From Devosia ginsengisoli (lineage in GTDB: Bacteria > Pseudomonadota > Alphaproteobacteria > Rhizobiales > Devosiaceae), in assembly GCF_007859655.1 (NCBI RefSeq), contig NZ_CP042304.1:2666001-2730000 (forward strand): a DNA stretch of 64,000 bases, written 5' to 3'. Under the pieces are notes generated by a model, which searched no databases, was not told where the DNA came from, and saw only the letters and a list, made by a program, of their open reading frames with translations. Below, piece after piece: positions 1,927-16,456 of this stretch (positions within the stretch are counted from its first letter, which is position 1; every line of letters begins with the position of its first letter). The translations under genes and the position numbers were made by a program.

Positions 1927-4524
1927 CTAGCGCTGCCTGGCGGGCGGCTCTTCGGCCACGGTGGCGCTCCACATCGCCTTGGTGATCGACTGCGTGGTGG
2001 AGAAATAGTCCTTCCATGGATCGGGCTTTCCTGCCCGCTCGGCTGCGTCAGCCAGGGTGAACTGGTTGGCGGCCTTGATGGTCTCCAGCTCATCCCAGCT
2101 GACCGGCACAGCCACCGGCGCACCCTGGCGTGAGCGGCTGGACCAGGGGGCGATGGCGGTGGCACCGCGCTCGTTGCGCAAATAGTCGATGAAGATTTTG
2201 CCCTTGCGGCTGGCCTTGCGCGAATTGGCGGTGAAGCGATCTGGAAACTTGTCGGCGAGGCGCTGGGCAAAGGTCTTGCAGAAGCTCTTGATCTCCGGCC
2301 ATTCGGTGGTCGGGCGGAGCGGCGCGATGACATGAATGCCCTTGCCACCACTGACCAGCGCATAGCTTTCCAGCCCCCAGGCGCCGAGTTCGCTGCGGAT
2401 ATCGACGGCGGCGGCGCGGACATGCCCGAAGTCCAGTCCCTCATCGGGGTCGATGTCAAAGATGATGCGCTCGGGCTTTTCTAAATCCCTGGTGCGCGAC
2501 CCCCACAGGTGCCATTCGAGCACGTTCATCTGCGTGCCGGCGATCAGGCCGGCCAGTGTGTCGATATAGAAATAGCTTTCCTTCTCACCGTCCTTCTCGG
2601 CGATCATCAGCGATTTCATGGCGTCGGGAAAACCGCCGGTGTCGTGCTTCTGGAAGAAGCAGTATTTCGCCCTGCCCTGCGGGCAGCGCAGCAGGCTCAG
2701 TGGCCGGTTTTCGATATAGGGCAGCATGCGATCGGCCACGGCGGCATAGTAGGCGACGAGGTCGGCCTTGGTGACGCCCTGGCCGGGATAGACCACCCGG
2801 TCGGGACTGCTGAGCTTGATGCCAGCCGCCTCGGCGGCGTTGATGCCCGCCTGCGTGCTGAGCGGCGCGGCAGCGGCTTTACGAGTGTCGGGCTTGTCCA
2901 AGGTCACGTCTCCCGCCGGTTTGTCCTCGCGCAAAGTGAGGAAGGAGGGGTGGCGCATTATGCCATCCGGGGTGAATTCGGTGTAGCCGATTTCGGCCAC
3001 CAGTTCGGGCGACACCCAGCGGGCGGTCCTGGCGACGGCCCTGGGCACATTGGCGAAGGGATTGGTCTTGCGGGCGCGGCTGTTGAGCTGCTGCTGCAGG
3101 GCCTGCGCATCGTCCACGGAAAAACCGGTGCCGACCCGGCCGCGATAGACCAGCTTGCCATCCTCCCAGGTACCGACCAGCAGAGAAGCGAAGGTCTTCT
3201 TCTTGCTCGAGGGCGACCAGCCGGCGATGACGAATTCCTGCCGCTTGCCGCATTTGATCTTGAGCCAGCTTCGAGTGCGCTCGCTGCGATAGGGCGCATC
3301 ACCCCGCTTGGCGATGATGCCTTCGTGGCCTTCGCGGCAGACAGTGTCGAACACCTTCTGGCCATTGCCGGTCACATGCGTCGAGAATTGCACCAGCGAG
3401 GATTTTTCGATCCTGCCGAGCAGCGTTTCGAGCCGTGCTTTGCGTTCTACGAGCGGCAGTTTTGCCAGTTCCTCGCCATCCTGCTCGATGAGATCGAAGG
3501 CAAAATAGGTCAGCGATCCGCCATTCGAGAGGTGATCCTTGAGAGTCGAGAAATCGGTGCGGCCCTTGCTGTCGAAGGCGCAGAGTTCGCCATCGATCAG
3601 CGCCGTGCCGGCAGTTACGCGGGATAGAGGCGGGACGATGGTCTTGAATTGTTCGGTCCAGTCCTTGCCGGTCCGCGTGTAAAGCCGGACCTGCTCGCCG
3701 GAAATGGCGGCAAGGCAGCGATAGCCGTCATATTTCATTTCGAACAGCCAGCCGGACTCTTCCGGGATATCGGTGACCAGGGTGGCCAGTTGCGGCGGGC
3801 GGAAGTCCGGCAAGTCGGCTGCCTTGCCCTTGCGCCTGGCCGAGACGGGGTTGTCGACAGCCTTGTCCTCATCGGAATGCCAGACGGCCTCGTTGGGCGT
3901 ATCGGTATTCTTTTTGGCCTTCAGCCCCTTGGCGATACCATCAAGGTCGCGGCCGGTGGAGACCGACCGGGTGAAGCGCCCGGTCAGCGTCTCTTTATCC
4001 CTGGCATAGTCGTCGCGATGCTTGATGAGCAGCCAGTTTTCCCGTGGCGGACCGGATTTGCGCTTGCTGTCGCGGCCTTTCATGTGGACCAGCACCCATT
4101 CCCCTTTCATGCGGTGACCATGCAGCCGCATCTTGAGGTCGCCATCTTCAAGTGCGTCGCGGGGGTCAGCCAGCGGCTCCCAGGTGCCCTCGTCCCACAG
4201 CATCACCGTGCCCCCGCCATATTCGCCTTCGGGGATGGTGCCCTCGAAGCTGCCATAGTCGAGGGGATGGTCCTCCACGCGCACGGCGAGGCGTTTGTCC
4301 GCAGGGTTGTCGGATGGCCCCTTGGTCACCGCCCAGCTCTTGAGCACACCGTCGAGCTCGATGCGGAAATCGTAATGCAGCTGCCGGGCGTCATGTTTCT
4401 GCACCACGAAGCGACGGGCCTTGCCATTCGTCTTCGCCTTGCCGGCACCAGAAGGCTCCTGCGTCTTGGTGAAGTCGCGTTTGGCCTTGTAGTCCCTGAG
4501 CAGGGCTTCGGCTTTGGTCGCCAT
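1927..4524 (-). CDS. ligD: ATP-dependent DNA ligase LigD (phosphoesterase-ligase-polymerase)
   Basis: 865 aa, full length for a three-domain LigD. Order: 3'-phosphoesterase domain (about residues 35-175; KHDARQLHYDF with His44/His50, then His86 in EDHPLDYGSFEG), ligase domain with the adenylated Lys264 in MKYDGYR, and a C-terminal primase-like polymerase domain with LLRCPQGRAKYCFFQKH and the catalytic DIDPDEG. It trims, fills and seals double-strand break ends recruited by Ku. The ATG lies 3 bp after the ku stop, so ku and ligD form one operon. The domain order PE-LIG-POL is common in Alphaproteobacteria. All catalytic motifs look intact. Confidence 0.97.
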   Translation of the reverse strand: MATKAEALLRDYKAKRDFTKTQEPSGAGKAKTNGKARRFVVQKHDARQLHYDFRIELDGVLKSWAVTKGPSDNPADKRLAVRVEDHPLDYGSFEGTIPEGEYGGGTVMLWDEGTWEPLADPRDALEDGDLKMRLHGHRMKGEWVLVHMKGRDSKRKSGPPRENWLLIKHRDDYARDKETLTGRFTRSVSTGRDLDGIAKGLKAKKNTDTPNEAVWHSDEDKAVDNPVSARRKGKAADLPDFRPPQLATLVTDIPEESGWLFEMKYDGYRCLAAISGEQVRLYTRTGKDWTEQFKTIVPPLSRVTAGTALIDGELCAFDSKGRTDFSTLKDHLSNGGSLTYFAFDLIEQDGEELAKLPLVERKARLETLLGRIEKSSLVQFSTHVTGNGQKVFDTVCREGHEGIIAKRGDAPYRSERTRSWLKIKCGKRQEFVIAGWSPSSKKKTFASLLVGTWEDGKLVYRGRVGTGFSVDDAQALQQQLNSRARKTNPFANVPRAVARTARWVSPELVAEIGYTEFTPDGIMRHPSFLTLREDKPAGDVTLDKPDTRKAAAAPLSTQAGINAAEAAGIKLSSPDRVVYPGQGVTKADLVAYYAAVADRMLPYIENRPLSLLRCPQGRAKYCFFQKHDTGGFPDAMKSLMIAEKDGEKESYFYIDTLAGLIAGTQMNVLEWHLWGSRTRDLEKPERIIFDIDPDEGLDFGHVRAAAVDIRSELGAWGLESYALVSGGKGIHVIAPLRPTTEWPEIKSFCKTFAQRLADKFPDRFTANSRKASRKGKIFIDYLRNERGATAIAPWSSRSRQGAPVAVPVSWDELETIKAANQFTLADAAERAGKPDPWKDYFSTTQSITKAMWSATVAEEPPARQR

Positions 4525-5364: not shown

Positions 5365-5522
5365 GGAGAGTTTCACCTCTACGTGGTGAGCTAGAAACGA
5401 TCCTGTCCGGCGCTTCGTTCCGACAGCGAAAGAGGGAAGCAAGTCAAGGCCGGGCGGTTGGGCTACCACCGCGTTAGCTCTCCACCGCTAGCCGGCAAAA
5501 CTGGGGTCAATTGCTATAGCCC

Positions 5523-6760
5523 TCAATCGCTCTTTGATGCTGGCCCGTCACGATCGTCGTCGACGCGATGGGCGGCATCCCTGGCTTCGCGCTGGCGTTG
5601 CGCACGCGCAATGTTGGCTGCAATCTCCTTGGGATCCCGGGGATCAATTAAGCCGTCAAGATGGCGGCGCACCTCTTTGGCCGATAGTGCAGGACGGCTC
5701 GTATCACGCTTGAAAACCGGTTCGGGCATGTCCTCAATTACAAAGCCTGGCTCCTGATCTGGTGCCGTCGGGTTGGTAGGGTCCGGGGACAACATTTTCG
5801 GCGCTCTTTCGTACCCAAGCTTGCCTGCAGGCGGAACGGGCTCATTTTGCGGCACGACAACCGCACGGGCTACAGCCTTGCGTTTGTGGCCGACGCCGGC
5901 ACGCGCGTAATGGGTGTGGGCGGTGTGCACCGACAAGTGCCCGCACAGGAGTGCGATTTCCGGGGGAGACAGTCCCGCCGCGGCCCAGGAGGCAATCGCC
6001 ACGTGACGAAAGCTATAGAGCGAGAGGACACGAGCGCCGATACGTTCGCAGGCGCGCTCGAGCTGCCCGGCCAGGCATTTCTGCCATTTGGCGAATTCGC
6101 GCTTGCTCAGATCATGGTCGATCATGCGCAGGAGCAAGTCGACGCCAGCTCGGACGTCCTCGTGCATCTCGGATAGATTCAGCTTGCGGGTCGGCGTCTG
6201 GCCCGGGCGCTTCTTGGCATTGGGAAGGGTGAGCCATGCTCCGTCGAATGTTGCGCCCCGCAATTCGATGGGCCGGAATCCGCTATGCCCCGCCACGAGG
6301 ACAAAGAGCGCGGCAAGTATCGAATTCGGATTTTCGTATTTGAGTCCATGGCGCTTGAGTTCGTAAAATAGCGCCCTTGCTTCGGCGTCTGTGGCATCGA
6401 CCACCTTTTTGGCCGACGTGCGTCGCTTCTCTTTGGGGATTGTTGCCTTTCGCGCCGTAAGTGCGGCACCGACCTTTTCCCAGGCCGTCGGGAAGCTGGC
6501 GCCCCGCCCGGTGGCCTCCATTTCCTCGGCAAGAGCATAGCGGAGATCGGCGCGATAGCGGGGATCGACCGGCGCGCGAGCGGTCCGCTCTGTCGCTGAA
6601 CGGCGGCAAGGGCATCTTCAGGCAGGGCATCAGGAAAGAGCATCATGGCATCGGCAAGCCAGCGACGGCCGATGCGCAGATGATCTTCTATCGTATCGGG
6701 GGCAGCGGGCCCCGAGGGCGGCAAGTGGTGGCGCGGCATGTCGATCTGTGTCAATTGCAT
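5523..6760 (-). pseudogene. Tyrosine recombinase/integrase-like gene with a frame break
   Basis: The 3' 332 codons encode an integrase-like catalytic domain: Arg in SGFRPIEL, then LYSFRHVAIASW...LLCGHLSVHTAHTHYA, giving R, the RH box, the GH box and the nucleophile Tyr. The usual His three residues before the second Arg is Tyr here (YSFRH). The N-terminus (MQLTQIDMPRHH...ALAAVQRQSG) starts at 6760 behind GGAG but is in another frame. The two halves join near 6560-6580 if one base is missing, reading ...GPLAR-PVDPRYRADLRYALAEE. So this is a one-base deletion, a real pseudogene or a sequencing error. The C-terminal 130 residues are a Pro/Arg-rich tail of unknown role. Confidence 0.7.
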
Positions 6761-6807
6761 TACTCCACGAATGTATCATGCAAAGTCGCATTACTCCATG
6801 AATTTAT
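6757..6807. repeat. 20-bp direct repeat duplicating the recombinase RBS/start
   Basis: GCATTACTCCACGAATGTAT (6757-6776) and GCATTACTCCATGAATTTAT (6788-6807) match at 18 of 20 positions, 31 bp apart. On the minus strand each copy contains GGAG-TA-ATG, so the ribosome site and start codon of the recombinase are duplicated. It may be an operator pair for autoregulation or simply a local duplication. Confidence 0.6.
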
Positions 6808-6837
6808 GTTCCATCCAGCCAAGGGCTTTGGCCTCTC

Positions 6838-6978
6838 GGATCACCGTTTGATCACCAGGTGATCAACACCTGATCGACAGATGGTCAACAAGCCAAAGGG
6901 CTCCAGAAGGAGTGAACGCTTGATGATCGACATTTGATCTACATCCGACCAACAACCTGCCACCATCTGATCAACAAG
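6838..6978. repeat. Two arrays of five 11-bp direct repeats (iteron/centromere-like)
   Basis: Array 1 has units starting at 6838, 6849, 6860, 6871 and 6882. Array 2 has units at 6924, 6935, 6946, 6957 and 6968. The consensus is TGATCAACANN; examples are TGATCACCAGG, TGATCAACACC, TGATCGACAGA, TGATCTACATC and TGATCAACAAG. The unit at 6957 is the weakest. A 31-bp spacer separates the arrays. The 11-bp period puts each unit about one helical turn apart, as expected for cooperative protein binding. The arrays lie between the recombinase start and the 3' end of the HTH gene, so they could be a centromere, an origin iteron array or a multi-site operator. Confidence 0.75.
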
Positions 6979-7020
6979 CTCCCGTCAGGTTCCGCGATTT
7001 TTCCAAACTGGTCACCCGGG

Positions 7021-7998
7021 TTAGCCAAGGGATGGTGCCTCGTCGAAGATGTCACCGAGCAGCGAGCGGCGCGTTGAGATCATGATCGCGCGCTCCCCGA
7101 AGCGGGCAATGACCGGTCGGCTGCGGCAGGGGTGGTCCCTGTCGCGGCGCGGAACGGAAGCCTGGGGATGGTTGATCCAATCGGCCCCCGCGATAGGAAT
7201 CCGGGACAACATATGTCGCCGCGCGGCTGACGAGGGCAGCACGAGAACAACGAGGCCGCCAAAATAGACATTTGCCGCAATGGCGCGCGTCCAGATCGGT
7301 CGGGCCTCGGTCCTGTAGCGCTCCAAGGTGACCATCTGGTCGATCTCGATAAACCCGATAACCATCGACTGGTCGCGGACCGTCAAGAGGAGGCTGGCAT
7401 CGCCGTTATCCGCTTTGCTGGCTTTGACAACAACCGCGCAGGTAAGGCCGAGAAATCTCGAAAGGGGATCGCGGGTATCCGCCAGAGCAAACCGGTCATC
7501 GCGGGGACGGTCAATGATTTGGGGAACGGAGCGGATGATTTCGTTTCGCCATGCGAGGCGGGGCGCTTCAACCACGGCTTTGAGCTGGACGGCAACGTTG
7601 GGGGGTGACGGCATCCACCTATGCCGCACCGATGGGACCGGAGTTGGCCTTGCTACACGCGCGGCCCTGAGCAGCGCCCGGTCATCGACGATCCTGGGTG
7701 GATTCCCGGCAAGCCCATTTCGCAGATAGTCATGGACAGCATCGGGGTCGCGGCGAAACCAGCGTGCTGTTGTACTGGCCGCGACGGCGCTTGAGCGAAA
7801 AAGAAGCGTTCTGAGTCCGTGCTCGGGGATGTCGCGAACCAGTTTGACGGCGTCCGCATAATTGCGCAATGCGCCCCGCGACAGTCCGAGCCGCGCCGCC
7901 AGATCGGCTTCGAATGCCAGCCTAGCATCATCCGGTTGGCGTGACCGCACTATGGCGGCCAGACGGCCCAGGACTGCCCATTTTCGAATACGTTCCAT
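7021..7998 (-). CDS. Unknown protein with N-terminal helix-turn-helix
   Basis: 325 aa. I do not recognise the family. Residues about 28-52 (FEADLAARLGLSRGALRNYADAVKLV) look like a helix-turn-helix. The middle is Arg/Pro-rich. A second folded region (LSRFLGLTCAVVVKA...LLLTVRDQSMVIGFIEIDQMVTLERYR...VYFGGLVVLVLPSS) alternates hydrophobic strands and helices without a catalytic motif I can name. It is transcribed divergently from the 8090 gene across an 88-bp region holding a 20-bp perfect palindrome, and its 3' end abuts the 11-bp repeat arrays. It is a candidate DNA-binding protein for either site. That role is inference. Confidence 0.65.
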   Translation of the reverse strand: MERIRKWAVLGRLAAIVRSRQPDDARLAFEADLAARLGLSRGALRNYADAVKLVRDIPEHGLRTLLFRSSAVAASTTARWFRRDPDAVHDYLRNGLAGNPPRIVDDRALLRAARVARPTPVPSVRHRWMPSPPNVAVQLKAVVEAPRLAWRNEIIRSVPQIIDRPRDDRFALADTRDPLSRFLGLTCAVVVKASKADNGDASLLLTVRDQSMVIGFIEIDQMVTLERYRTEARPIWTRAIAANVYFGGLVVLVLPSSAARRHMLSRIPIAGADWINHPQASVPRRDRDHPCRSRPVIARFGERAIMISTRRSLLGDIFDEAPSLG

Positions 7999-8027
7999 GC
8001 CGATTTAGCTGCACGAACTGCACGCTG

Positions 8028-8056
8028 TTGACAAGTCGGGTTGTCCATCACACAAT
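8028..8056 (+). promoter_or_regulatory. Sigma70-like promoter for the 8090 gene
   Basis: TTGACA at 8028-8033, 17 bp, then CACAAT at 8051-8056, immediately upstream of the 20-bp palindrome and 34 bp before the 8090 ATG. The -35 is perfect; the -10 matches only moderately. Confidence 0.45.
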
Positions 8057-8059
8057 GAC

Positions 8060-8079
8060 GCTAATGAAATTTCATTAGC
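8060..8079. promoter_or_regulatory. 20-bp perfect palindrome, likely operator
   Basis: GCTAATGAAATTTCATTAGC is a perfect, spacer-less palindrome of 20 bp in AT-rich sequence between two divergent genes. It lies just after the promoter-like element and overlaps the expected transcription start, the classic place for a repressor site. The HTH protein encoded next door (7021-7998) is the obvious candidate binder. Confidence 0.65.
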
Positions 8080-8089
8080 AATCAAATTG

Positions 8090-8689
8090 ATGACTGACTT
8101 GGACCATCATCGCCGTTTTATCGAGGCGCTTAAGTCGCGCTGGGATGCTGTGGGCGGACCCGTGTCGCTCACGAGCTTTCTCAATGAGTGCCGGTCGGTG
8201 ATTGCGCCGCTTCTGGTGCGCCGGGTTCCCTGGTCATGGATCGCGCCGCGGGTGGTTGCCGTCTACCTGAACCCCAGCGCCAATGTGCCGGTCGATGTTG
8301 CGCCGCTCGGAGTGGCAGAGAAGAAGACGCTGATCCAGCTTTATTCGAGGACGACCCTGCGCAACCAGCGCCTTGGGCTTGACGCCGCACGTGCCATCGC
8401 GCCTGAACCGGCTCCTGCGGTTTCCATCGCGGCTCCGGTGCATGCGGAAACAAAGATTCACCCGCCCAAGCCGCCGCAGATGGGCGATCCCCCGATGAGC
8501 GCCGCGCGCGACGGGCCCGCATTCGCCAGGGTGCCGATATCAGCAAACGACTTGGACAATTTGAGTGAGCATCATGAGTTATCCTTTTCCCACCCTTTCT
8601 ATCCCTGCTGGCATCCGTATCGGCTTTTTTGTGACGGTGAGCCCCAAGAAATCCGCAAAGACAACGGTATCGCGTATTGCGGCAAATGA
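8090..8689 (+). CDS. Unknown island protein, C-terminus possibly frameshifted
   Basis: 199 aa from the ATG at 8090 (a TTG sits one codon earlier). The first ~110 residues look real (LDHHRRFIEALKSRWDAVGGPVSLTSFLNECRSVIAPLLVRRVPWSWIAPRVVA...), followed by an Ala/Pro-rich linker. I do not recognise the family; small plasmid DNA-binding or mobilisation accessory proteins are possible. The last ~38 codons overlap the next gene by 116 bp and have no protein-like character. Both other frames stop at 8553-8561, right before the next start, so an upstream frameshift would restore normal operon spacing. Confidence 0.55.
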   Translation: MTDLDHHRRFIEALKSRWDAVGGPVSLTSFLNECRSVIAPLLVRRVPWSWIAPRVVAVYLNPSANVPVDVAPLGVAEKKTLIQLYSRTTLRNQRLGLDAARAIAPEPAPAVSIAAPVHAETKIHPPKPPQMGDPPMSAARDGPAFARVPISANDLDNLSEHHELSFSHPFYPCWHPYRLFCDGEPQEIRKDNGIAYCGK

Positions 8690-9398
8690 GTTCGCTGATG
8701 GCGGATTTGAGCTGGTCGTTCTCCAGCACGACATCCACCACCTGCTCGAGTGCTTTGCGCCGACGGTACGGATCGATCTCGCCAAGGCCTCGCAGATCAT
8801 GCGCGGCAAGACGTCGATCGATCTCCACAATCACTCGCCGTTGAGCGACGCCCTTTTGTCGCTTCCCGACCACCCCCGCCGCGTTGTCTTGCTCGACGCC
8901 TCGGCTCAGGGCTCGGAGCGCATCGGCTCGATCCTGAACGCCGGCCGGTTCAACAAGTGGCTGGCCAACCGGGGAATTCACGCCATGTTTGCCGTTCCGA
9001 TGCGCCCTATCCACGATTCCGCGCTCGGTGCCGTCACCATGATCGAGGAACTTCATGCGGTGATGCCCGATCATTTCGTCGTGCCAGTGCCGGTCTGCGA
9101 TCCCAGCGATCTCGCATTGTTGCCCAAGGACCATCCGTTCTTCGATGCAATCAAGTTGGCCCGCCATGGCGTTATCCATCTGCCGGCGCTTGGTGAGGAG
9201 ATCGCTGCCGGCCTCGAACGTCTGGAACGCCCGCTCAGCGAGATTGCCGATCCCGACAGCGAGGAGACCCTCAAATATATCGTGGAAGCGTCCGGTCACG
9301 ACCGCCTGGTCTCTGGCCTTATTTCCGAAGGGGCGCAGCAATTGGTTTCGGCTTTTGAAAGCGCCATTGCCCCTTTGGAATTGGCGCCGGGCGGGTAA
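8574..9398 (+). CDS. ParA/TraL-like protein with degenerate Walker A
   Basis: 274 aa from the ATG at 8574 (GTG at 8565 is an alternative). The fold pattern is that of a ParA/MinD-type ATPase: strand GIRIGFFVTV, loop SPKKSAKTTVSRIAANEFA, a second strand ELVVLQHD, and RRVVLLDAS at the usual place of the second acidic strand. The glycines of the canonical KGGVGKTT loop are replaced (PKKSAKTT); only Lys-Thr-Thr remains. Nucleotide binding may therefore be weak, altered or lost. TraL-type conjugation proteins and partition ATPases are the nearest families I can suggest. It follows the 8090 gene and precedes a small basic protein, probably as one operon. Confidence 0.6.
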   Translation: MSYPFPTLSIPAGIRIGFFVTVSPKKSAKTTVSRIAANEFADGGFELVVLQHDIHHLLECFAPTVRIDLAKASQIMRGKTSIDLHNHSPLSDALLSLPDHPRRVVLLDASAQGSERIGSILNAGRFNKWLANRGIHAMFAVPMRPIHDSALGAVTMIEELHAVMPDHFVVPVPVCDPSDLALLPKDHPFFDAIKLARHGVIHLPALGEEIAAGLERLERPLSEIADPDSEETLKYIVEASGHDRLVSGLISEGAQQLVSAFESAIAPLELAPGG

Positions 9399-9460
9399 GG
9401 CTCGGCGCACCGGCCCGACCGCCCATTTCCCGTCGCTGGGTACGCTGGGCGACTTCTCAC

Positions 9461-9943
9461 ATGGAAGCGGGCCACTACAGATGGATGAATGGCCTGGCAT
9501 CCGCTGCCGGATATCTGTCCGAAACGGAACTTGACGACCTTTTCCGGGCAATGCGGCGCAGGCTTGAGCGCAGTGAGGATGCCGCGCTCGCCTGGCTTGC
9601 TGAACAGCAGGGCGGGAAGAAGTTTGCAAGGCGCTATCCCAAGCTGTCCTCGGCCTCGATCAGACAGGTTAATACCCGGTGGCGAGGCGCCACCCGGCGC
9701 GCCATAATGCGTATCAATCGTTCGAGACCGCTGCGGTCAGGCCATGACGTCGAGCTTGAGCGACTTCTGCTCCGGCTATCGCCTTGGCGGTTGATCGCTA
9801 TCCACGTCTGCTTCTGGCGCCATCGGGTGCTGGATACCTACTGGAGGCGGCGCGCCAGACGCTTGTCGAAGCGGATCGCGAGTTCAATCAGAGAGGATGC
9901 CAGGCGCTTCTGGCACTGGATTTCACAGGCAAGACAACGCTGA
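9461..9943 (+). CDS. Small basic unknown protein, 3' part of uncertain frame
   Basis: 160 aa. The first ~100 residues are helical and charged (ETELDDLFRAMRRRLERSEDAALAWLAEQQGGKKFARRYPKLSSASIRQVNTRWRGATRRA). From about 9780 the frame becomes Trp/Arg-rich. A -1 frame from there to 9978 gives a more protein-like tail (LAVDRYPRLLLAPSGAGYLLEAARQ...). Either frame could be the true 3' end, so a frameshift near 9780 is possible. The spacing of 62 bp from the ParA-like gene is consistent with a shared transcript. Family not recognised. Confidence 0.45.
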   Translation: MEAGHYRWMNGLASAAGYLSETELDDLFRAMRRRLERSEDAALAWLAEQQGGKKFARRYPKLSSASIRQVNTRWRGATRRAIMRINRSRPLRSGHDVELERLLLRLSPWRLIAIHVCFWRHRVLDTYWRRRARRLSKRIASSIREDARRFWHWISQARQR

Positions 9944-9972
9944 AACGGCGATCGAACAGACAGCAGATTGAT

Positions 9973-10138
9973 TCATGAACCCGCTGCTATTGCGACTCCC
10001 CCGATAAAAGGCGCTGCGCCGGTATTCGGCCGGTCAGTCAGCGCGGTGAAGCCGAAGGTGGCGTAGAGGTCTGCGGCCTTTCCGTTAATTGCGTCGGCAA
10101 ATATGGCATGTGCGCAGCCTCGGCCACGGTCCTGAGTC
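9973..10138 (-). pseudogene. C-terminal remnant of a GNAT acetyltransferase
   Basis: The minus strand encodes an open stretch ending at a stop at 9973-9975: AHAIFADAINGKAADLYATFGFTALTD, then a Pro/Gly-rich end. The AxxFYxxFGF-type pattern is the C-terminal end of GNAT acetyltransferases, as in toxin-type GNATs. The acetyl-CoA loop and N-terminal two thirds are absent upstream, where the histidine phosphatase gene begins. It is a truncated gene. Confidence 0.55.
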
Positions 10139-10139
10139 A

Positions 10140-10721
10140 TCAGCTCAGGAACGTGACTTTCCCGTCCGCAAGGCAGGCCAGCCCGCCATCGGGCACCGTA
10201 AGCCGCAGCGCCTCGTGACGCGGCACTCCAAGATAAACTCCCATGAGCACGCGACCTGCGACCCCGTGCGATACGGCTATAGTGGAACCGGAAACCGACT
10301 TCAGCCAGGCTCCAAGCCGGGCGCTCGCACCCTCGAAGCTCTCGCCATCGGGAGCTCTGAAGAACCAGTCAAAGGCCCCTGCACCGTCCAGCGCACCTGG
10401 GTATTCAATGCTAATCTCGTATGCTGTCATCCCGTCCCAGGAGCCGAAGCTGACCTCAGCCAGCCGATCGTCGGTCTTGAGGCTCACCTGGGACATGTTC
10501 GCGAGCAGGCGTGATGCCGTAACCTGCGCTCGTTCCAGCGGGCTGACTTGACACTGCAGGGGTTCGTCCCTGCCTTCGAGTGCGTTGAGCAGCACTTGCC
10601 CCATCCGGTCGACCTGCCCCAGCCCATATTCCGTAAGGGGGGAATTCTGCAGGCCCTGCAGTCGCCCCAGTGTGTTCCAGACTGTCTGACCGTGTCGCAC
10701 GAGATAAATTACCTGACCCAT
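10140..10721 (-). CDS. Histidine phosphatase family protein (phosphoglycerate mutase-like)
   Basis: 193 aa from MGQVIYLVRHGQTVWN; the longer upstream frame adds a non-conserved leader. The RHG motif with the catalytic His is at residues 8-12. SPLERAQVTA follows, then EVSFGSWDG, and the second catalytic His is in AVSHGVAGR. This fits the phosphatase branch of the superfamily (GpmB/CobC-like). Substrate cannot be told from sequence. It stands between two decayed genes and seems to be a single transcription unit. Its 5' region (10722-10911) holds a small CGTTAT-GGCG-ATAACG hairpin near 10855-10870. Confidence 0.88.
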   Translation of the reverse strand: MGQVIYLVRHGQTVWNTLGRLQGLQNSPLTEYGLGQVDRMGQVLLNALEGRDEPLQCQVSPLERAQVTASRLLANMSQVSLKTDDRLAEVSFGSWDGMTAYEISIEYPGALDGAGAFDWFFRAPDGESFEGASARLGAWLKSVSGSTIAVSHGVAGRVLMGVYLGVPRHEALRLTVPDGGLACLADGKVTFLS

Positions 10722-10911
10722 GATCAAAATACCTGTTCCGCACCTTGCTCTTGGCCGCCGTGCCGGCAATTGACTATCTACAGCGAAAAATTGAGAAACA
10801 TCTACATTTGGACGCCAGGTACAGAGGGGCAAAATGAAAGTGACTGACGCTCGCCGTTATGGCGATAACGTTTGCTACGGATACACTCCACCACTCCTCC
10901 ATCCGGCATCA

Positions 10912-11405
10912 TCACGCACCGGTGAAAGGCAGGCTGCCAGACAGCGTGTTTAAGCCCTCGGCCATCGTCGGATCGGCGAGAATGGCATCACGTAAGGCAG
11001 TTGTCCGAGCATGGCGGCCTGCACCACTGCCATCACTTCACCCGACCGTCCCCTCACCTGCTTGACATCGGCGGACAACAACACCTCGATGCCGTCCGCC
11101 TCCAGGATGGCCTTCACCGCCTGTGAAACATCGGCGTCTTTGCGCCGCAACAGCCGGACGCCATGATCGATGGCCGTTACGCGGCTGCCGAAGCGCCGAT
11201 AGGCCTGGGCGAGTTCGAGGCCGACATACCCCCGCCAATCACAATCAGATGGCCCGGCAGGCGATCCAGTCGAGTGCCTCGATGGGTAGGCGGTTCAGCC
11301 TCGTCGAGACCCGGAATTGGCGGGATGTTGGGATGCGTGCCCAGATTGAGGAATAGTTTTCGGTGGCAAGTCGCCACGTTCCGCCATCCAGACGGGCCAG
11401 TTGGC
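10912..11405 (-). pseudogene. Decayed pyridine nucleotide-disulfide oxidoreductase (MerA-like)
   Basis: Pieces of one flavoprotein lie in different frames: RLDGGTWRLATEN, LNLGTHPNIPPIPGLDEAE, GHLIVIGGG (NAD-binding strand), LELAQAYRRFGSRVTAIDHG, LLRRKDADVSQAVKAILEADGIEVLLSADVKQV, and a C-terminal DAILADPTMAEGLNTLSGSLPF before a stop at 10912. The N-terminal FAD domain is gone, the frame breaks several times, and sequence between the NAD domain and the dimerisation end is missing. It is a clear pseudogene of the mercuric reductase/dihydrolipoamide dehydrogenase superfamily. Confidence 0.8.
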
Positions 11406-11955
11406 ATCAGAGCAAGTCCTCAGGTTTCAGGCTTATGGGTATGGAAATGTTCGAGCTGGACAGATGCGGGGCTTTTGTCAGTTTTGTCGCTTCCGTCAAT
11501 TCCGGCGCAGCCGGCCACCCGCCCGTTAACCCTTGTTTACTATTTGTTCCGGGCGGGGTTGATTGGATCGGGGATCCAGTGGAGCCTAGCTATGTCGATT
11601 CGCACTGCCGAATCGATGTCGGACCGGGGCCGCCGCAAGGCGGCCGACCCGCTGTTACCAGCAGCAGGCCGGCCTGACCAACGCAACCCTGCTTACACAG
11701 GAGTGTACGATGGCTATGTCCATGTACCGGCGGCGCACCTGCGCCTGCAAGGCCCCGAACACAGTTTCGGGGGGTAATCCCAACTCCGATCGGGTGACCA
11801 CCGTCCAGGCCGCGGCCTGGATCTGCGTCGGCGCTCCGGGCGCGCGGCGGTCCTGACCGACCCCGGCGAGGCGCTGTTCCTCGCCATGTACCCGGCGCCT
11901 CGCCCCTACCCTCATTGGTTTCCCGTCATGTCCGGCCCCGCCGGAGGAGTTTTTC
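11406..11955. other. Intergenic region upstream of the FtsH-like operon
   Basis: 550 bp between a pseudogene and the 11956 gene. It holds one small open frame with a fair ribosome site (11592-11777), a short inverted repeat CGATTCG/CGAATCG in its 5' part, and Pro/Arg-rich noncoding sequence afterwards. Promoter sequences for the operon should be here, but I cannot assign a convincing -35/-10 pair. Confidence 0.4.
11592..11777 (+). CDS. Possible 61-aa small protein
   Basis: An ATG preceded by GTGGAG at suitable spacing opens a frame of 61 codons, MSIRTAESMSDRGRRKAAD... ending in EHSFGG. It is Arg- and Gly/Pro-rich with no domain or membrane segment. It precedes the three-gene FtsH-like operon on the same strand. 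It may be a real short gene, a leader peptide or chance; I have no family support. Confidence 0.22.
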   Translation: MSIRTAESMSDRGRRKAADPLLPAAGRPDQRNPAYTGVYDGYVHVPAAHLRLQGPEHSFGG

Positions 11956-12798
11956 ATGTCCCATGCCCATGCGCCCCTGGCACCATCGGATCTGCCTGCC
12001 CATCCCCTCGCGCATTTGCCGTTCGAACCCGTCGTCGAACGGCTCACTGCCAAATGGCCCCAGCACCGAGCCGCCCTCCTGTCGGCCTCTCCCGGCTTTG
12101 CCCTGATCGCCAGCGTCGATGGCAACTGGCTGCTCGCCCCCTGCGGTCCCGATGCGGATCCTGCCGTGATCGAAGGGCGTATCGAGCGCTATATGATCAA
12201 CCGCTTCATCCTGATCACCGGCGCACCTACGCTCACGATCGCTCAGGCCGCCGCGGCACGCCGCATCGCCCACCAGACGCTGAGTGGTCCTGCCGCCATG
12301 CCGATCCTGGGGCCTTGCCCTGCCGGCGCCGCGGTCGGACCGTCCGACTATGCCGCGCTCCGCATCATGGTGGGCATGGCGCTCCACCGTCTCCATGACG
12401 AAGGCGTCCTGCCTGCCCAGGCCGCGCCGAGACAACTCGAGACCGGTGTGGTCACTGCCGCCGATGCCGCGGCCGCCGCTGCCCTGGCCGCCTTTAACCC
12501 GATCGCAGCATCACCCCTCAGGCTCGAAGGCGACCTGCATGTCCGCGTCGTGGAGGTGGTGGGCGGCTATGTGCTGCTGCCGGGCTCCTGCATCGACCTA
12601 GCGGCTAGCGGGGGCGCCGAGCGCATCAGCCGGCTGCTGGAAGACAGCCATGCCGGCCTGCTGTTGGCCCAGCAGGGCGGCATCTACTGGCTGCAGCAGC
12701 CGATCGGCTTCGCCACGCTCGAGGCCATCGCGATCTATTGCCTGGGGGACCGCGCGGCGTCGGAGGCGCGCTGGCATTGGATGACCGAGGTGCCCTAG
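11956..12798 (+). CDS. Unknown 280-aa protein, first gene of the FtsH-like operon
   Basis: A strong ribosome site (GGAGGAG, 6 bp before ATG) fixes the start. The protein is Ala-rich, soluble and without signal peptide or membrane helices. It has two halves: residues about 30-150 (FALIASVDGNWLLAPCGPDAD...RIERYMINRFILITG) and about 165-275 (LHVRVVEVVGGYVLLPGSCIDLAASGG...GGIYWLQQPIGFATLEAIAIYCLG). The mixed strand/helix pattern has no motif I recognise. It is followed 127 bp later by the FtsH-like protease gene and then a small coupled gene. It may be a substrate adaptor or target of the protease; this is inference from position only. Confidence 0.6.
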   Translation: MSHAHAPLAPSDLPAHPLAHLPFEPVVERLTAKWPQHRAALLSASPGFALIASVDGNWLLAPCGPDADPAVIEGRIERYMINRFILITGAPTLTIAQAAAARRIAHQTLSGPAAMPILGPCPAGAAVGPSDYAALRIMVGMALHRLHDEGVLPAQAAPRQLETGVVTAADAAAAAALAAFNPIAASPLRLEGDLHVRVVEVVGGYVLLPGSCIDLAASGGAERISRLLEDSHAGLLLAQQGGIYWLQQPIGFATLEAIAIYCLGDRAASEARWHWMTEVP

Positions 12799-12925
12799 CA
12801 GGGCTTGCGCGGCGACGCCTTGTTCGTTCGCCTCACCAGCATGCCACTCACCCTATGAACCTGCCGTGCTCGAACCACGGCATGTCACCGAGACCAATCA
12901 ATACCCCTCCTCTTCAGGCAGTCCG

Positions 12926-14791
12926 ATGACTCCTTCCAACTCCACTCCATCCTCCCTGCGACGGCTCGGCATCGCCCTGCTCGAGGCAACCCTTGGACCC
13001 GACCGCCTGATTGATCTCGCCGGCCACAGCCACCGCGTGCTGATCATTCGCGTGCCCGACAAAACCTGGCTCACGCCGCTGCACGAGGCGGCCGAGCAGT
13101 TCCTGCCCGAGGTGCGCCCGCTCAGCATTATCAGGCGCGATCGGGACGATGCCGACCGCCTGGCCAGCCTCTATCTCGAAGCGGGTCCATCATCGCTCTG
13201 GCTCACCCATGATCCTGAGCTGCTGCCCCCGGTGATCCGGCTGGCCGCCGACGAGGTACTGTCCCTGGCGCCCATCACAACTGCCCTGCTGGGCCAGGTC
13301 ATCGCCGGAAGCACCGGCCGCGTCCCTCGCCGGCTGCGTCCCACCGATCATGCCGGACTGGGCCTGTTCGAGATTGCCGCCGCCATCCGGCCCGATACCA
13401 CCGCCGACCAATGCGTCACCCGCCTGCGTCACATGGCGCGCCGCCAGGCCGAGGCCGGCATCCATCATCCCGATCCGGACCTGCTGGCCCTGCCCATTGT
13501 CGGGGCGGCGGCCAGGGACTGGGCAAGCGGGGTCGCCAGCGCCTTTGCCGCCATCCGGGCGGGAACGGCGAACGCTTCCCTGCTGCGCCATACCGTACTG
13601 CACGGCATGCCCGGCACCGGCAAGTCGCTGCTGGCCCGCGCCGCCGCCGCCAAGGCTTGCGTGCCGGTACTCGAGGCCAGCATTCCCGGCTTCTTCAGCG
13701 GCAGCGACGGCCATCTCAACACCGTTCTCTCCGGCGTGAACGGTTTCATCGACCGCCTGATCGCCAGCGCACCGGCCATCGGGGTTCTCGACGAGGTCGA
13801 TGCCATCAGCGCCCGCTCCGCCCAGCGCGAGTACCAGGCCTATTGGACCAATCTCGTGGACGGGCTGCTCCTCGCCATCGATCGCCTCAATGCCTCCGGC
13901 GCAGCCGTGCTACTGGTCGCAACCACCAACCTGCTGTCCCATGTGGACCAGGCCATCGTCCGGCCCGGTCGCCTCGGGCACCACATCCTGATCGAGCCCC
14001 CCACCCGCGCCGACGACATCGGGGCCCTGTTGCGTCATCATCTGGAACGGCAGGCGCCGGCCCTGAAACTCTCCGATGCCACCCTGGCGCCACTGGTCCG
14101 CGCGCTGATCGGCCGCACGCCCGCTCGCATCGCCGATATCGTCAGCGCCGCCTGCGGCGCCGCCACCCTCGCCCGGCATTCACCTGACCTTGCCGATCTG
14201 TGGAAAGCCATGCCGCAGGGTCCCGATACCCGCGATAGCGACGGCGCCGCGCTGGCCGTGACAGCCCGCCACGAGGCCGCCCATGCCGTACTGGCGCTGC
14301 ACCTGGGCCGCCACCTCATCAGCATGAGCCTAATTCGGGACGGCGATCGGATCGGCCACACCCTCATCGCTGCCCTTGACCGGCCCGCCACCTTGGCCGA
14401 CCTCGAAGCCGAGGTGACCATCCTGCTGGGCGGACGCGCGATGGATCGGCTGGCCGGTCCCGGTCTCTGCGCCGGCGCCGCCGACGACCTGGAGCGGGCG
14501 CTCACCCTCATCGGCCTTGGCTACACAAGATGGGGTCTGCACGCCCTGCCCCTCAGCATGCCCGGCGAGACCATCGCCCAGCGCTGCGCCCGCGATCCCA
14601 CCCTGACCGCCGCCATCGATGCCGACCTGACCCGCCTGCAGCAGCGGGCCACCGACCTGGTCTCCACCCTTGCCGAGCCCATTGCCGCCCTTGCCGCAAC
14701 CTTGCTGGCCGAGCGCCATCTGGATGCCGACCGCATCCACGTCATCCTCGAACCTTTTGACGTCACAGACCCAACGGAGCCACAGCCATGA
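12926..14791 (+). CDS. FtsH-like AAA+ zinc metalloprotease without membrane anchor
   Basis: 621 aa from the ATG at 12926 (GTG at 12866 possible). It has a ~200-residue N-terminal domain of unknown type with no transmembrane helix, then an AAA+ module: Walker A GMPGTGKS (227-234), Walker B IGVLDEVD (285-292), sensor-1 VATTN (331-335), and an Arg-finger region RPGRLGHH (~346). A C-terminal M41-like peptidase follows with HEAAH (449-453) and a likely third metal ligand Asp in GAADDLERA (~521). FtsH unfolds and degrades proteins; lack of the two N-terminal membrane helices and the new N-domain set this one apart. It overlaps the next gene by 4 bp. Confidence 0.85.
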   Translation: MTPSNSTPSSLRRLGIALLEATLGPDRLIDLAGHSHRVLIIRVPDKTWLTPLHEAAEQFLPEVRPLSIIRRDRDDADRLASLYLEAGPSSLWLTHDPELLPPVIRLAADEVLSLAPITTALLGQVIAGSTGRVPRRLRPTDHAGLGLFEIAAAIRPDTTADQCVTRLRHMARRQAEAGIHHPDPDLLALPIVGAAARDWASGVASAFAAIRAGTANASLLRHTVLHGMPGTGKSLLARAAAAKACVPVLEASIPGFFSGSDGHLNTVLSGVNGFIDRLIASAPAIGVLDEVDAISARSAQREYQAYWTNLVDGLLLAIDRLNASGAAVLLVATTNLLSHVDQAIVRPGRLGHHILIEPPTRADDIGALLRHHLERQAPALKLSDATLAPLVRALIGRTPARIADIVSAACGAATLARHSPDLADLWKAMPQGPDTRDSDGAALAVTARHEAAHAVLALHLGRHLISMSLIRDGDRIGHTLIAALDRPATLADLEAEVTILLGGRAMDRLAGPGLCAGAADDLERALTLIGLGYTRWGLHALPLSMPGETIAQRCARDPTLTAAIDADLTRLQQRATDLVSTLAEPIAALAATLLAERHLDADRIHVILEPFDVTDPTEPQP

Positions 14792-15198
14792 CCCCCTTGC
14801 CCGAGTTCGACCTTCACTATCCCGACGGCCTCGCTTTGCTCGATCTCGGTGCGCTCATCGACCCCGATGCCATCCCCCGGACCCAACACCACCTCCCCCT
14901 TGTCGAAAAGCTGTCCCGGGCCATCGCCGACATCGAGCGCCTCAAGCAGGGCTGGCGGCCAACGCCCCAGGACCTCGCCCAGGCGCCGCTTCTCTCATCC
15001 TGGTCCTTCGCCGGTAGCCTCACGCCTGGCGGCACCTATCTGTCCGGCATCGTCACCGGACATCCGACAATCCAAAGCGGCGCCTTCTGCACGACATCCG
15101 TCCTCGTCGCCATCGAGGCCAGATCATGGACATGGGCGAGAACCGCATCACGCTTCTATCGCATCGAGCCGGGCGGGCCAGCCGCCCGGAGACGATGA
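14788..15198 (+). CDS. Small unknown protein coupled to the FtsH-like protease
   Basis: 136 aa; its ATG overlaps the protease stop (ATGA), so translation is coupled. Notable parts are LPLVEKLSRAIADIERLKQGWRPTPQDLAQAPLLSSWSF in the middle and a conserved-looking C-terminal WTWARTASRFYRIEPGG. From memory this resembles a small DUF family (possibly DUF6634) often found near such ATPases, but I cannot confirm it. No catalytic motif, signal peptide or membrane segment is seen. Co-transcription suggests an adaptor or regulator of the protease. Confidence 0.6.
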   Translation: MTPLPEFDLHYPDGLALLDLGALIDPDAIPRTQHHLPLVEKLSRAIADIERLKQGWRPTPQDLAQAPLLSSWSFAGSLTPGGTYLSGIVTGHPTIQSGAFCTTSVLVAIEARSWTWARTASRFYRIEPGGPAARRR

Positions 15199-15283
15199 AA
15201 CCGGCCGCACCCTGGATCAACGTGCTCGATTAGGAGCGCTTGGGCGTAGGCGCATACCAACAGGAAAACACGCGCCTTCCCCG

Positions 15284-16456
15284 TTAATGCGAAGACAGTG
15301 AAAAGCCCTTTGAGCTGAACGAGAAGAACCGGTTCAGCAGGCCCGATAGCGGCGGCCAGGTCATGATGTTGACTGAGGTATCGCGGATGGCGGCATGGAA
15401 CGGGGTGGCCGGCACGAACCACTTGGCCATGCGCCGCCCCGCCCGCTGCTTTTCCAGCACCAGCGGCCGCAGGTCCTGTTCGAACCGCGCCAAAGCCGCC
15501 GCGATATCAACAGCACCATCGAGCACCTGCCCCAGCGCGCGACCACCGGCCAGCGCCAGTGACGCGCCCTGCCCGGCCATCAGCGACACCGCATAGGCCG
15601 CATCGCCCACCAGAACCGTGCGCTGGCTCTGCCAATGGGCCATCTCCACCTGCGCCACCACGTCGTAGTAGATATCCTCGGGGCCCGGCGCCCCCGCCAG
15701 TGTTTCCGGCAGCACCCAGCCGAGATCACCAAAGGCGGCCTTGAGCCGCGGCAGCGGATCCTGCGGGCGCTCACGGCTGTCGTCGCGGATGACGAAAAAG
15801 GCCATGATGCGACCCGGATCAACCTCATAGAGGCCCACCATCCGGTCCCTGATCGCCATCATCTTGAAATCGCCGGCCAGCATTTTCGCCACCGCGGCAC
15901 TGTCGAAGAAATAGGCGGCGGTGTGGAAGCCCAGATAGCGCAGGAAGCGCTCTTCCGGCCCGAAGGCCATGTGGCGCACCGCCGAATGAATGCCATCGGC
16001 ACCAACCAGCAGGTCGGCCTCGAGACTGCCGCCATCGGCCAGGGTGACCGCAACGCCCCTGTCGCTGTTGTCGAACGACGCGATCTCGCTGGCATATCGA
16101 ACCACGGCGCTATCGGGCAGTGCATCGTGCAGAACCTGCTCGATATCGCCACGCAGGATGGGGAACAGCTTGCCGCCAGCCGCCGCGCCGATCTGCTCGT
16201 AATCCATCTGCGAGCCGATACGGCCCGTGCCATTGACGAAATCGACCTTGTCGACGCCGCGCGCATGCGCCTTGAGGGCGGCGATGACGCCCAGGTCTTC
16301 GGCCGCCTCATAGCCGGGACCGAAGAAATCCAGCATATAGCCGCCGGCCCGCAGGCTTGGCGCCTTTTCGAGCAGGGTTACGGTCCATCCGGCCCGGCCA
16401 AGGGCGATGGCGGTGGACAGGCCGGCAATGCCGGCGCCGGAGATAATGGCTTTCAT
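15284..16456 (-). CDS. FAD-dependent monooxygenase
   Basis: 390 aa from MKAIISGAGIAGLSTAIALGRAGW, where the GxGxxG FAD-binding fold starts. A DG motif (LLVGADGIHSAVR) lies mid-protein, and the second FAD motif VGDAAYAVSLMAGQGASLALAGGRALG near residue 290. This is the PHBH/TetX-type class A flavin monooxygenase architecture, which hydroxylates aromatic or polycyclic compounds. The ATG overlaps the stop of the TetR gene by 4 bp, and the pair lies behind a palindromic operator, so it is probably induced by a small-molecule substrate of the regulator. Substrate unknown. Confidence 0.9.
   Translation of the reverse strand: MKAIISGAGIAGLSTAIALGRAGWTVTLLEKAPSLRAGGYMLDFFGPGYEAAEDLGVIAALKAHARGVDKVDFVNGTGRIGSQMDYEQIGAAAGGKLFPILRGDIEQVLHDALPDSAVVRYASEIASFDNSDRGVAVTLADGGSLEADLLVGADGIHSAVRHMAFGPEERFLRYLGFHTAAYFFDSAAVAKMLAGDFKMMAIRDRMVGLYEVDPGRIMAFFVIRDDSRERPQDPLPRLKAAFGDLGWVLPETLAGAPGPEDIYYDVVAQVEMAHWQSQRTVLVGDAAYAVSLMAGQGASLALAGGRALGQVLDGAVDIAAALARFEQDLRPLVLEKQRAGRRMAKWFVPATPFHAAIRDTSVNIMTWPPLSGLLNRFFSFSSKGFSLSSH

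Follow-up and report, generated by a model that had tools for sequence, protein, structure and literature searches.

A putative centromere-like repeat array between a recombinase gene and a ParB/KorB-like gene in a chromosomal element of Devosia ginsengisoli

In a 64,000-nucleotide stretch of the Devosia ginsengisoli genome (contig NZ_CP042304.1, positions 2,666,001 to 2,730,000; hereafter the window, with positions counted from its first letter) we studied an array of short direct repeats in the gap between a tyrosine recombinase gene and a gene for a helix-turn-helix (HTH) protein. The array consists of ten phase-locked 11-bp units, each a 9-bp site with a 2-nt linker, arranged as five plus five. 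Because this layout recurs beside the same gene set in related bacteria, the array probably marks a genuine site of protein assembly on a mobile element. We favour, with somewhat less than even confidence, the reading that it is a putative nucleoprotein assembly site of an integrative element, comparable to a centromere or to the stbDR repeats of plasmid R388. The observations behind this reading are the two sets of five 9-bp sites, linkers that are not conserved together with a set distance that is, a constant position of the array in the recombinase-HTH gap, and a conserved cassette whose products include a ParA-fold ATPase and an HTH protein resembling ParB/KorB.

The repeat array

Set 1 covers 6838..6892 on the forward strand, with units starting at 6838, 6849, 6860, 6871 and 6882, and set 2 covers 6924..6978 on the same strand, with units starting at 6924, 6935, 6946, 6957 and 6968. 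Between them lies a spacer of 31 bp (6893..6923, no strand assigned). Only two of the ten units, at 6860 and 6968, read exactly TGATCAACA, and seven of the ten match it with at most one mismatch; the poorest are those at 6838 (GGATCACCG) and 6957 (CTGCCACCA). The five-unit self-similarity at period 11 reaches 0.76 at 6838 and 0.66 at 6925, values that none of 60 dinucleotide-preserving shuffles of the entire 64-kb window attained (maximum 0.61). When the recombinase-HTH gap was searched de novo for two phase-locked groups of five 9-mers at a set distance of 76-107, the mean pair identity was 0.711 at distance 86, and the best of 40 mononucleotide shuffles of this gap gave 0.368. The array is hence confirmed as real in the window, and coordinates and shuffle tests agree with the initial annotation, which had described ten 11-bp units as five plus five around a 31-bp spacer.

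Conservation of the array in related loci

Six loci with the cassette were compared, coming from 136 Devosiaceae genomes and from one GTDB contig scan (three loci): the window itself, a near-identical copy in genome G014 (L015), Pelagibacterium flavum (L034), P. sediminicola (L018), Rhizobiales UBA3584 (L036) and G024 (L011), which belongs to the window's genus. In the de novo search the pair identity within the gap was 0.711 in both the window and P. flavum, 0.706 in G014 and 0.548 in P. sediminicola, with lower values of 0.447 in G024 and 0.407 in UBA3584, and the best of 40 shuffles per locus lay between 0.368 and 0.398 across the six gaps. We read this as a clear array in four of the six loci, three of them independent, the window and G014 being nearly identical. 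A set distance of 86 is shared by the window, P. flavum and G014; in P. sediminicola it is 96, with 74 nearly as good, and in G024 it is poorly determined (65 or 76).

Between the window and P. flavum the 9-bp units share 67 of 90 bases while the linkers share only one of 20 and the spacer, of equal length in both, 12 of 31 (ungapped). It therefore appears that the 9-mers and the distances are under selection. The two-unit pattern YGATCRACANNYGATCRACA matches three of the 136 Devosiaceae genomes (G000, which is the window's own, G014 and G159), once in each and always inside the recombinase-HTH gap, and its backwards control matches none of the 136. The remaining three cassette loci are too diverged for this exact pattern, and a weight-matrix scan is descriptive only, its matrix having been made from the window and P. 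flavum units. The repeats are thus conserved beside homologues of the genes which the initial annotation had named, with the gene order kept in all six loci, a clear array in four, and YGATCRACANNYGATCRACA occurring, among the 136 genomes, in this gap only. One of the two grounds on which the initial annotation would have been refuted, a lack of such conservation, is thereby removed.

Genes of the cassette

The cassette comprises five genes. The tyrosine recombinase gene (5523..6760, reverse strand; PHROG integrase, E 1.3e-8) occupies two frames in the window copy, and the HTH protein gene (7021..7998) lies on the same strand. Divergent from the latter and on the forward strand follow three genes. 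The first encodes a small protein (8090..8689), corresponds in position to stbA/traK and is out of step with its homologues in its C-terminal part; the second encodes the ParA-fold ATPase (8565..9398, start codon perhaps at 8574); and the third gene of the operon (9461..9943), which corresponds in position to stbC/traM, encodes a small basic protein. Order and relative orientation of recombinase, HTH protein, small protein and ATPase are kept in six of six loci, as judged by tblastn with the window and G024 proteins. The third operon gene has a tblastn match in five of the six, in G024 a weak one (E 9e-4), and in UBA3584 an open frame with 27% identity stands at its position.

The initial annotation had called the ATPase "ParA-like", and indeed its model has a predicted fold of the ParA/MinD/Get3 type, resembling ParF, MipZ and MinD. 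Its P-loop reads PKKxxK[ST][ST], and KKxxK[ST][ST] is found in 13 of 13 alignment rows; a Pfam search found no other ATPase within the cassette. The protein encoded at 7021-7998 fits KorB/ParB/Noc DNA-binding domains best in its first 120 residues, the match spanning residues 1-123. In a scan for defence systems the sole hit within the cassette was a short one between mad1 and the HTH protein (E 0.0011, residues 31-57).

These proteins are rare. The ATPase profile matches 13 of the 136 Devosiaceae genomes, six of them strongly and over the full length and seven more weakly; in four of these seven weaker regions tblastn found the ATPase match alone (three regions) or nothing (one). Among 397 genomes drawn from the order four have an ATPase match, all of them Devosiaceae, and the HTH profile matches one of 385 genomes drawn from the class, namely the window's own. 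Protein searches returned 11 relatives of the ATPase, 12 of the HTH protein and 14 of the small protein, none of which carries a Pfam domain or a functional name. In total, the relatives found here come only from Devosiaceae genomes and from unnamed metagenome proteins. A pattern scan of viral contigs revealed no relative of the ATPase. One ATPase relative, P0009, is filed under a eukaryotic source (Tetstr1); the protein is of the UBA3584 type and probably represents bacterial contamination of that assembly.

Except for the recombinase, none of the five cassette proteins could be assigned convincingly to a family in Pfam, NCBIfam or PHROGs, and the sequences aligned with the ATPase and with the HTH protein likewise lack a convincing Pfam family. 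This bears on the suggestion that the array serves the excised element as an iteron-type replication origin. Direct repeats in tandem, spaced by one helical turn, do look iteron-like, and in the unrelated viral contig L085 five or more 11-bp repeats of the TGATCAACA type lie near 3215, inside an open reading frame (ORF) that looks like a phage replication protein gene, so that this may be a phage origin. Ten viral stretches match a two-unit repeat, and the cassette was not seen in L085 or L082, the two that were inspected for genes. However, no replication-initiator family was matched by any cassette protein in the three databases, where most of these proteins match nothing at all. An iteron origin, already raised in the initial annotation, is weakened by this result, and we regard it as very improbable.

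Promoter-like sites, palindrome and a motif near the recombinase

A consensus scan of 6700-8150 revealed a single promoter-like site, TTGACA-N17-CACAAT at 8028-8056, which is followed by a perfect 20-bp palindrome at 8060-8079; both lie on the forward strand (8028..8079) between the divergent HTH and small protein genes. TTGACA followed by the palindrome is found at this place in all six loci. The palindrome is perfect in four of them and, by eye, imperfect in P. sediminicola and P. flavum. Its sequence class seems, again by eye, to track the class of the HTH recognition helix, with the window, P. flavum and P. sediminicola on one side and G024 and UBA3584 on the other. For this reason we suggest the palindrome at 8060-8079 as the binding site of the HTH protein, which would leave the array to a different binder or to an additional binding mode.

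A second motif, CATTAsTCyACG-like, is situated next to the recombinase gene (6758..6800, reverse strand), in two copies at 6758 and 6789, 31 bp apart. The strict pattern CATTAsTCyACG occurs upstream of the recombinase in eight of 18 recombinase loci. Two copies 31 bp apart are present in the window, G014 and UBA3584, and P. flavum has a variant. Since a TATAAT falls, by eye, between the copies in P. flavum and UBA3584, this region probably holds the recombinase promoter together with a dedicated operator. Compared with this motif, the array is farther upstream of the recombinase.

These sites have to be considered when the array is viewed as a multi-site regulatory element, a silencer or an activator of the recombinase or the HTH gene with no role in segregation; the initial annotation had likewise raised a multi-site operator of the recombinase gene. 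Such a role would suit its place upstream of the recombinase and directly downstream of the HTH gene, and passages of PMC3098194 and PMC5016525 describe stbDRs and parC as operators, too. Nevertheless, no promoter-like site was found in the spacer (6893-6923) or overlapping the array, although this consensus scan is weak, as 0.6 sites are expected by chance and the presumed recombinase promoter was also missed. Further, the recombinase has its own, nearer motif pair, which is also present at recombinases without an array, the operon promoter has its own palindrome, and a conserved set distance around an unconserved spacer exceeds what a simple operator needs. We therefore judge a purely regulatory array to be unlikely.

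Recombinase loci without the cassette

Tyrosine recombinases are known to use arm-type sites, short direct repeats near the recombinase gene such as those of phage lambda Int. The array could be a set of accessory sites for the recombinase or a helper, on which an intasome-like complex would form beside the recombinase gene. It does lie upstream of the recombinase gene in every locus that possesses it. The best support for accessory sites comes from two sister solo recombinases (G022 L118 and G054 L119, about 35% identical to the window recombinase), at which no cassette gene was found and which have 11-bp TGCCRATGACC repeats near the 3' side of the gene, with three-unit scores of 0.93 and 1.0 where shuffles reached at most 0.70. 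The repeats are located at 13166-13220 in L118 and at 3840-3890 in L119, with two to three full copies each.

On the other hand, these are the only two of 12 recombinase loci without the cassette to have repeats, and their repeats are on the 3' side, whereas the array is on the 5' side. In the other ten nothing of the kind lies beside the recombinase. G019 and G052 have neither cassette nor array, although their recombinases (53.9% and 45.3% identity in the best aligned parts) are about as close to that of the window as the one of G024 (49.7%). Ten sites in two sets of five are also many for arm-type sites. We consider accessory sites of the recombinase the main rival explanation, though a doubtful one.

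Comparison with known partition systems

The closest known layout is that of the stbDRs of R388, which is closer than parC of plasmid R1. Passages of PMC3098194 describe two sets of five 9-bp repeats with two-nucleotide spacing around the stbABC promoter. Applied to R388 (NC_028464), the same 5+5 script gave a pair identity of 0.704 at a set distance of 96, with a shuffle maximum of 0.390, much like our array with its 9-bp repeats and 2-bp linkers (0.711, distance 86). The operon is similar as well, with a ParA-superfamily ATPase gene between two genes for small proteins. Nevertheless, there are several differences: the repeat sequence of R388 is TTGCATCAT, its stbDRs flank the promoter of their own operon while our array lies in the recombinase-HTH gap, our cassette additionally contains the HTH protein and the recombinase, and the StbB motif KGGxxK[TS] or SGxxGK[TS] is absent from our ATPase. 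Comparison by hhalign with StbA (five rows against alignments of two and seven rows, which are shallow) gave probabilities of 1.4% and 0.5%, and that with StbB 0.3% and 1.8%.

The initial annotation had compared the array to R1 parC, where two sets of five repeats have a promoter in the middle according to passages of PMC4949242 and PMC5016525. The 5+5 layout of this comparison stands. The repeats do not surround a promoter, the lone promoter-like site of the weak consensus scan being at 8028-8056 and none lying between the sets as the par promoter does in R1, and the 9-bp units with 2-bp linkers bring the array nearer to R388. Moreover, ParM of R1 is actin-like, while our ATPase has a ParA-like predicted fold.

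With ParABS systems the cassette shares an ATPase whose predicted fold is that of the ParA superfamily, similar to ParF, MipZ and MinD, and its HTH domain may be of the kind seen in KorB, ParB and Noc, which it resembles. In contrast, the HTH domain is at the extreme N-terminus, leaving no room for a preceding CTP-binding domain, the P-loop is PKKxxK[ST][ST], and the array consists of direct repeats while parS is palindromic. Filing the cassette under R388 stb, R1 parMRC or ParABS was rejected, as each of them has at least one defining feature that was tested and is lacking here. If anything, the array would work like stbDRs, as a member of neither the R388 nor the R1 family.

A partition locus adjoining int already has a precedent among integrative elements, namely srpMRC of SXT/R391, which is needed when the element is excised, as passages of PMC4489591 describe it. 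SrpM, however, is actin-like (ParM type), and R391 is conjugative. No relaxase was found among the proteins scanned in 5.5-15.2 kb. A thin literature search on integrative elements, tyrosine recombinases, partition and direct repeats gave no mention of Devosia among the matches listed.

Possible function of the array

Returning to the array as a centromere-like or stbDR-like site, an element-encoded DNA-binding protein would fill the sites cooperatively along one face of the DNA, because 11 bp is about one DNA turn. Together with the ATPase, the protein-array complex could then hold or distribute the element while it is excised and liable to loss. We slightly prefer the small protein in the StbA position as the candidate binder, since the HTH protein is more likely to sit on the palindrome at 8060-8079. 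According to passages of PMC3098194, the stability of R388 needs the repeat-binding StbA and not the ATPase StbB.

Several points speak against such a function. The array is about 1 kb away from the promoter of the ATPase operon instead of around it. An element residing in the chromosome needs partition only if it excises, and excision is putative here. Repeats of 11 bp exist at the two of 12 sister solo recombinase loci without the cassette mentioned above, and no homology of the ATPase to StbB or of the small protein to StbA was detectable by hhalign (probability at most 1.8% and 1.4%). Finally, the array of G024 is weak (0.447 against a shuffle maximum of 0.385), and UBA3584 possesses the cassette with no convincing array in the de novo 5+5 search (0.407 against 0.398).

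It is conceivable, though we have considerable doubts, that the cassette represents an undescribed segregation or positioning system of integrative elements. This would combine the 5+5 array of 9-bp sites with an orphan ParA-fold ATPase having an unusual P-loop and a ParB-type HTH protein without a CTPase domain, maybe with an endonuclease-like C-terminal fold, and would have converged on the stbDR geometry of R388 without detectable kinship. To our knowledge, only few systems are known that prevent the loss of integrative elements during excision. If the proposal is true, this compact set of conserved genes and its array would add a new example, easy to test, of how excised elements are retained, and the recurrence of the 5+5, 9+2 geometry with proteins that have no detectable sequence similarity would point to a physical rather than an ancestral cause of the layout.

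Genomic setting and state of the window copy

The locus is chromosomal, because the window sits in a single 4.48-Mb contig (G000). The initial annotation had likened the layout to that of a plasmid centromere, but residence on a plasmid was rejected on account of this contig and of a tblastn search (E 1e-5) in which the ATPase and the HTH protein had no match among 72,556 plasmid records. The copy in G014 aligns with 97.5% over window positions 5458 to 15878 and with 93-94% beyond 15878 up to about 25.7 kb. Since the similarity to G014 starts at a left junction at 5458 (5458..5458, no strand), to the left of which the flanks differ, and the chromosomal backbone of G008 rejoins the window only at about 15289 and to the right of it, the island may extend over roughly 5.5-15.3 kb. 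The genes left of it we take for Ku and LigD. In the search for the ends of the element, neither a clean empty site nor a flanking duplication of the cassette came to light.

The window recombinase occupies two frames, that of G014 is split at another position, and the final 66 residues of the window small protein fall in a different frame in G014. Either the window/G014 lineage is decaying or these are sequencing indels. In P. flavum, P. sediminicola, UBA3584 and G024 the recombinase frames are open, with no internal stops.

The gene content outside the cassette varies among the loci, as would be expected of a mobile cassette; what does recur nearby in several is an AAA-M41 ATPase along with a second recombinase. 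The gene for this FtsH-like ATPase is found at 12866-15198 in the window, where a DUF6634 gene follows it, at 900-3997 in L034, 4995-7699 in L036, 443-12525 in L045 and 514-2716 in L120, and it adjoins the second tyrosine recombinase gene in the latter four. Also outside the cassette, an AAA protein has defence matches of the IetA/TRIP13 type.

In G024 the backbone stops at L011:5691, and inward of the far end of the element by about 100-250 bp (L011 5795-5944) an extra array of 11-bp repeats is accompanied by another copy of the recombinase-proximal motif. In G014 the 3' end of a putative FAD monooxygenase gene (window 15283-15354; L075 15361-15432) recurs about 23 kb leftward, with 95% identity over 66 bp, as it might after an element has integrated site-specifically. 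To the left of the island, the window has an 18-bp tandem repeat of 4.9 copies (1336-1423) within a Gly/Asn/Ala-rich ORF (999-1544).
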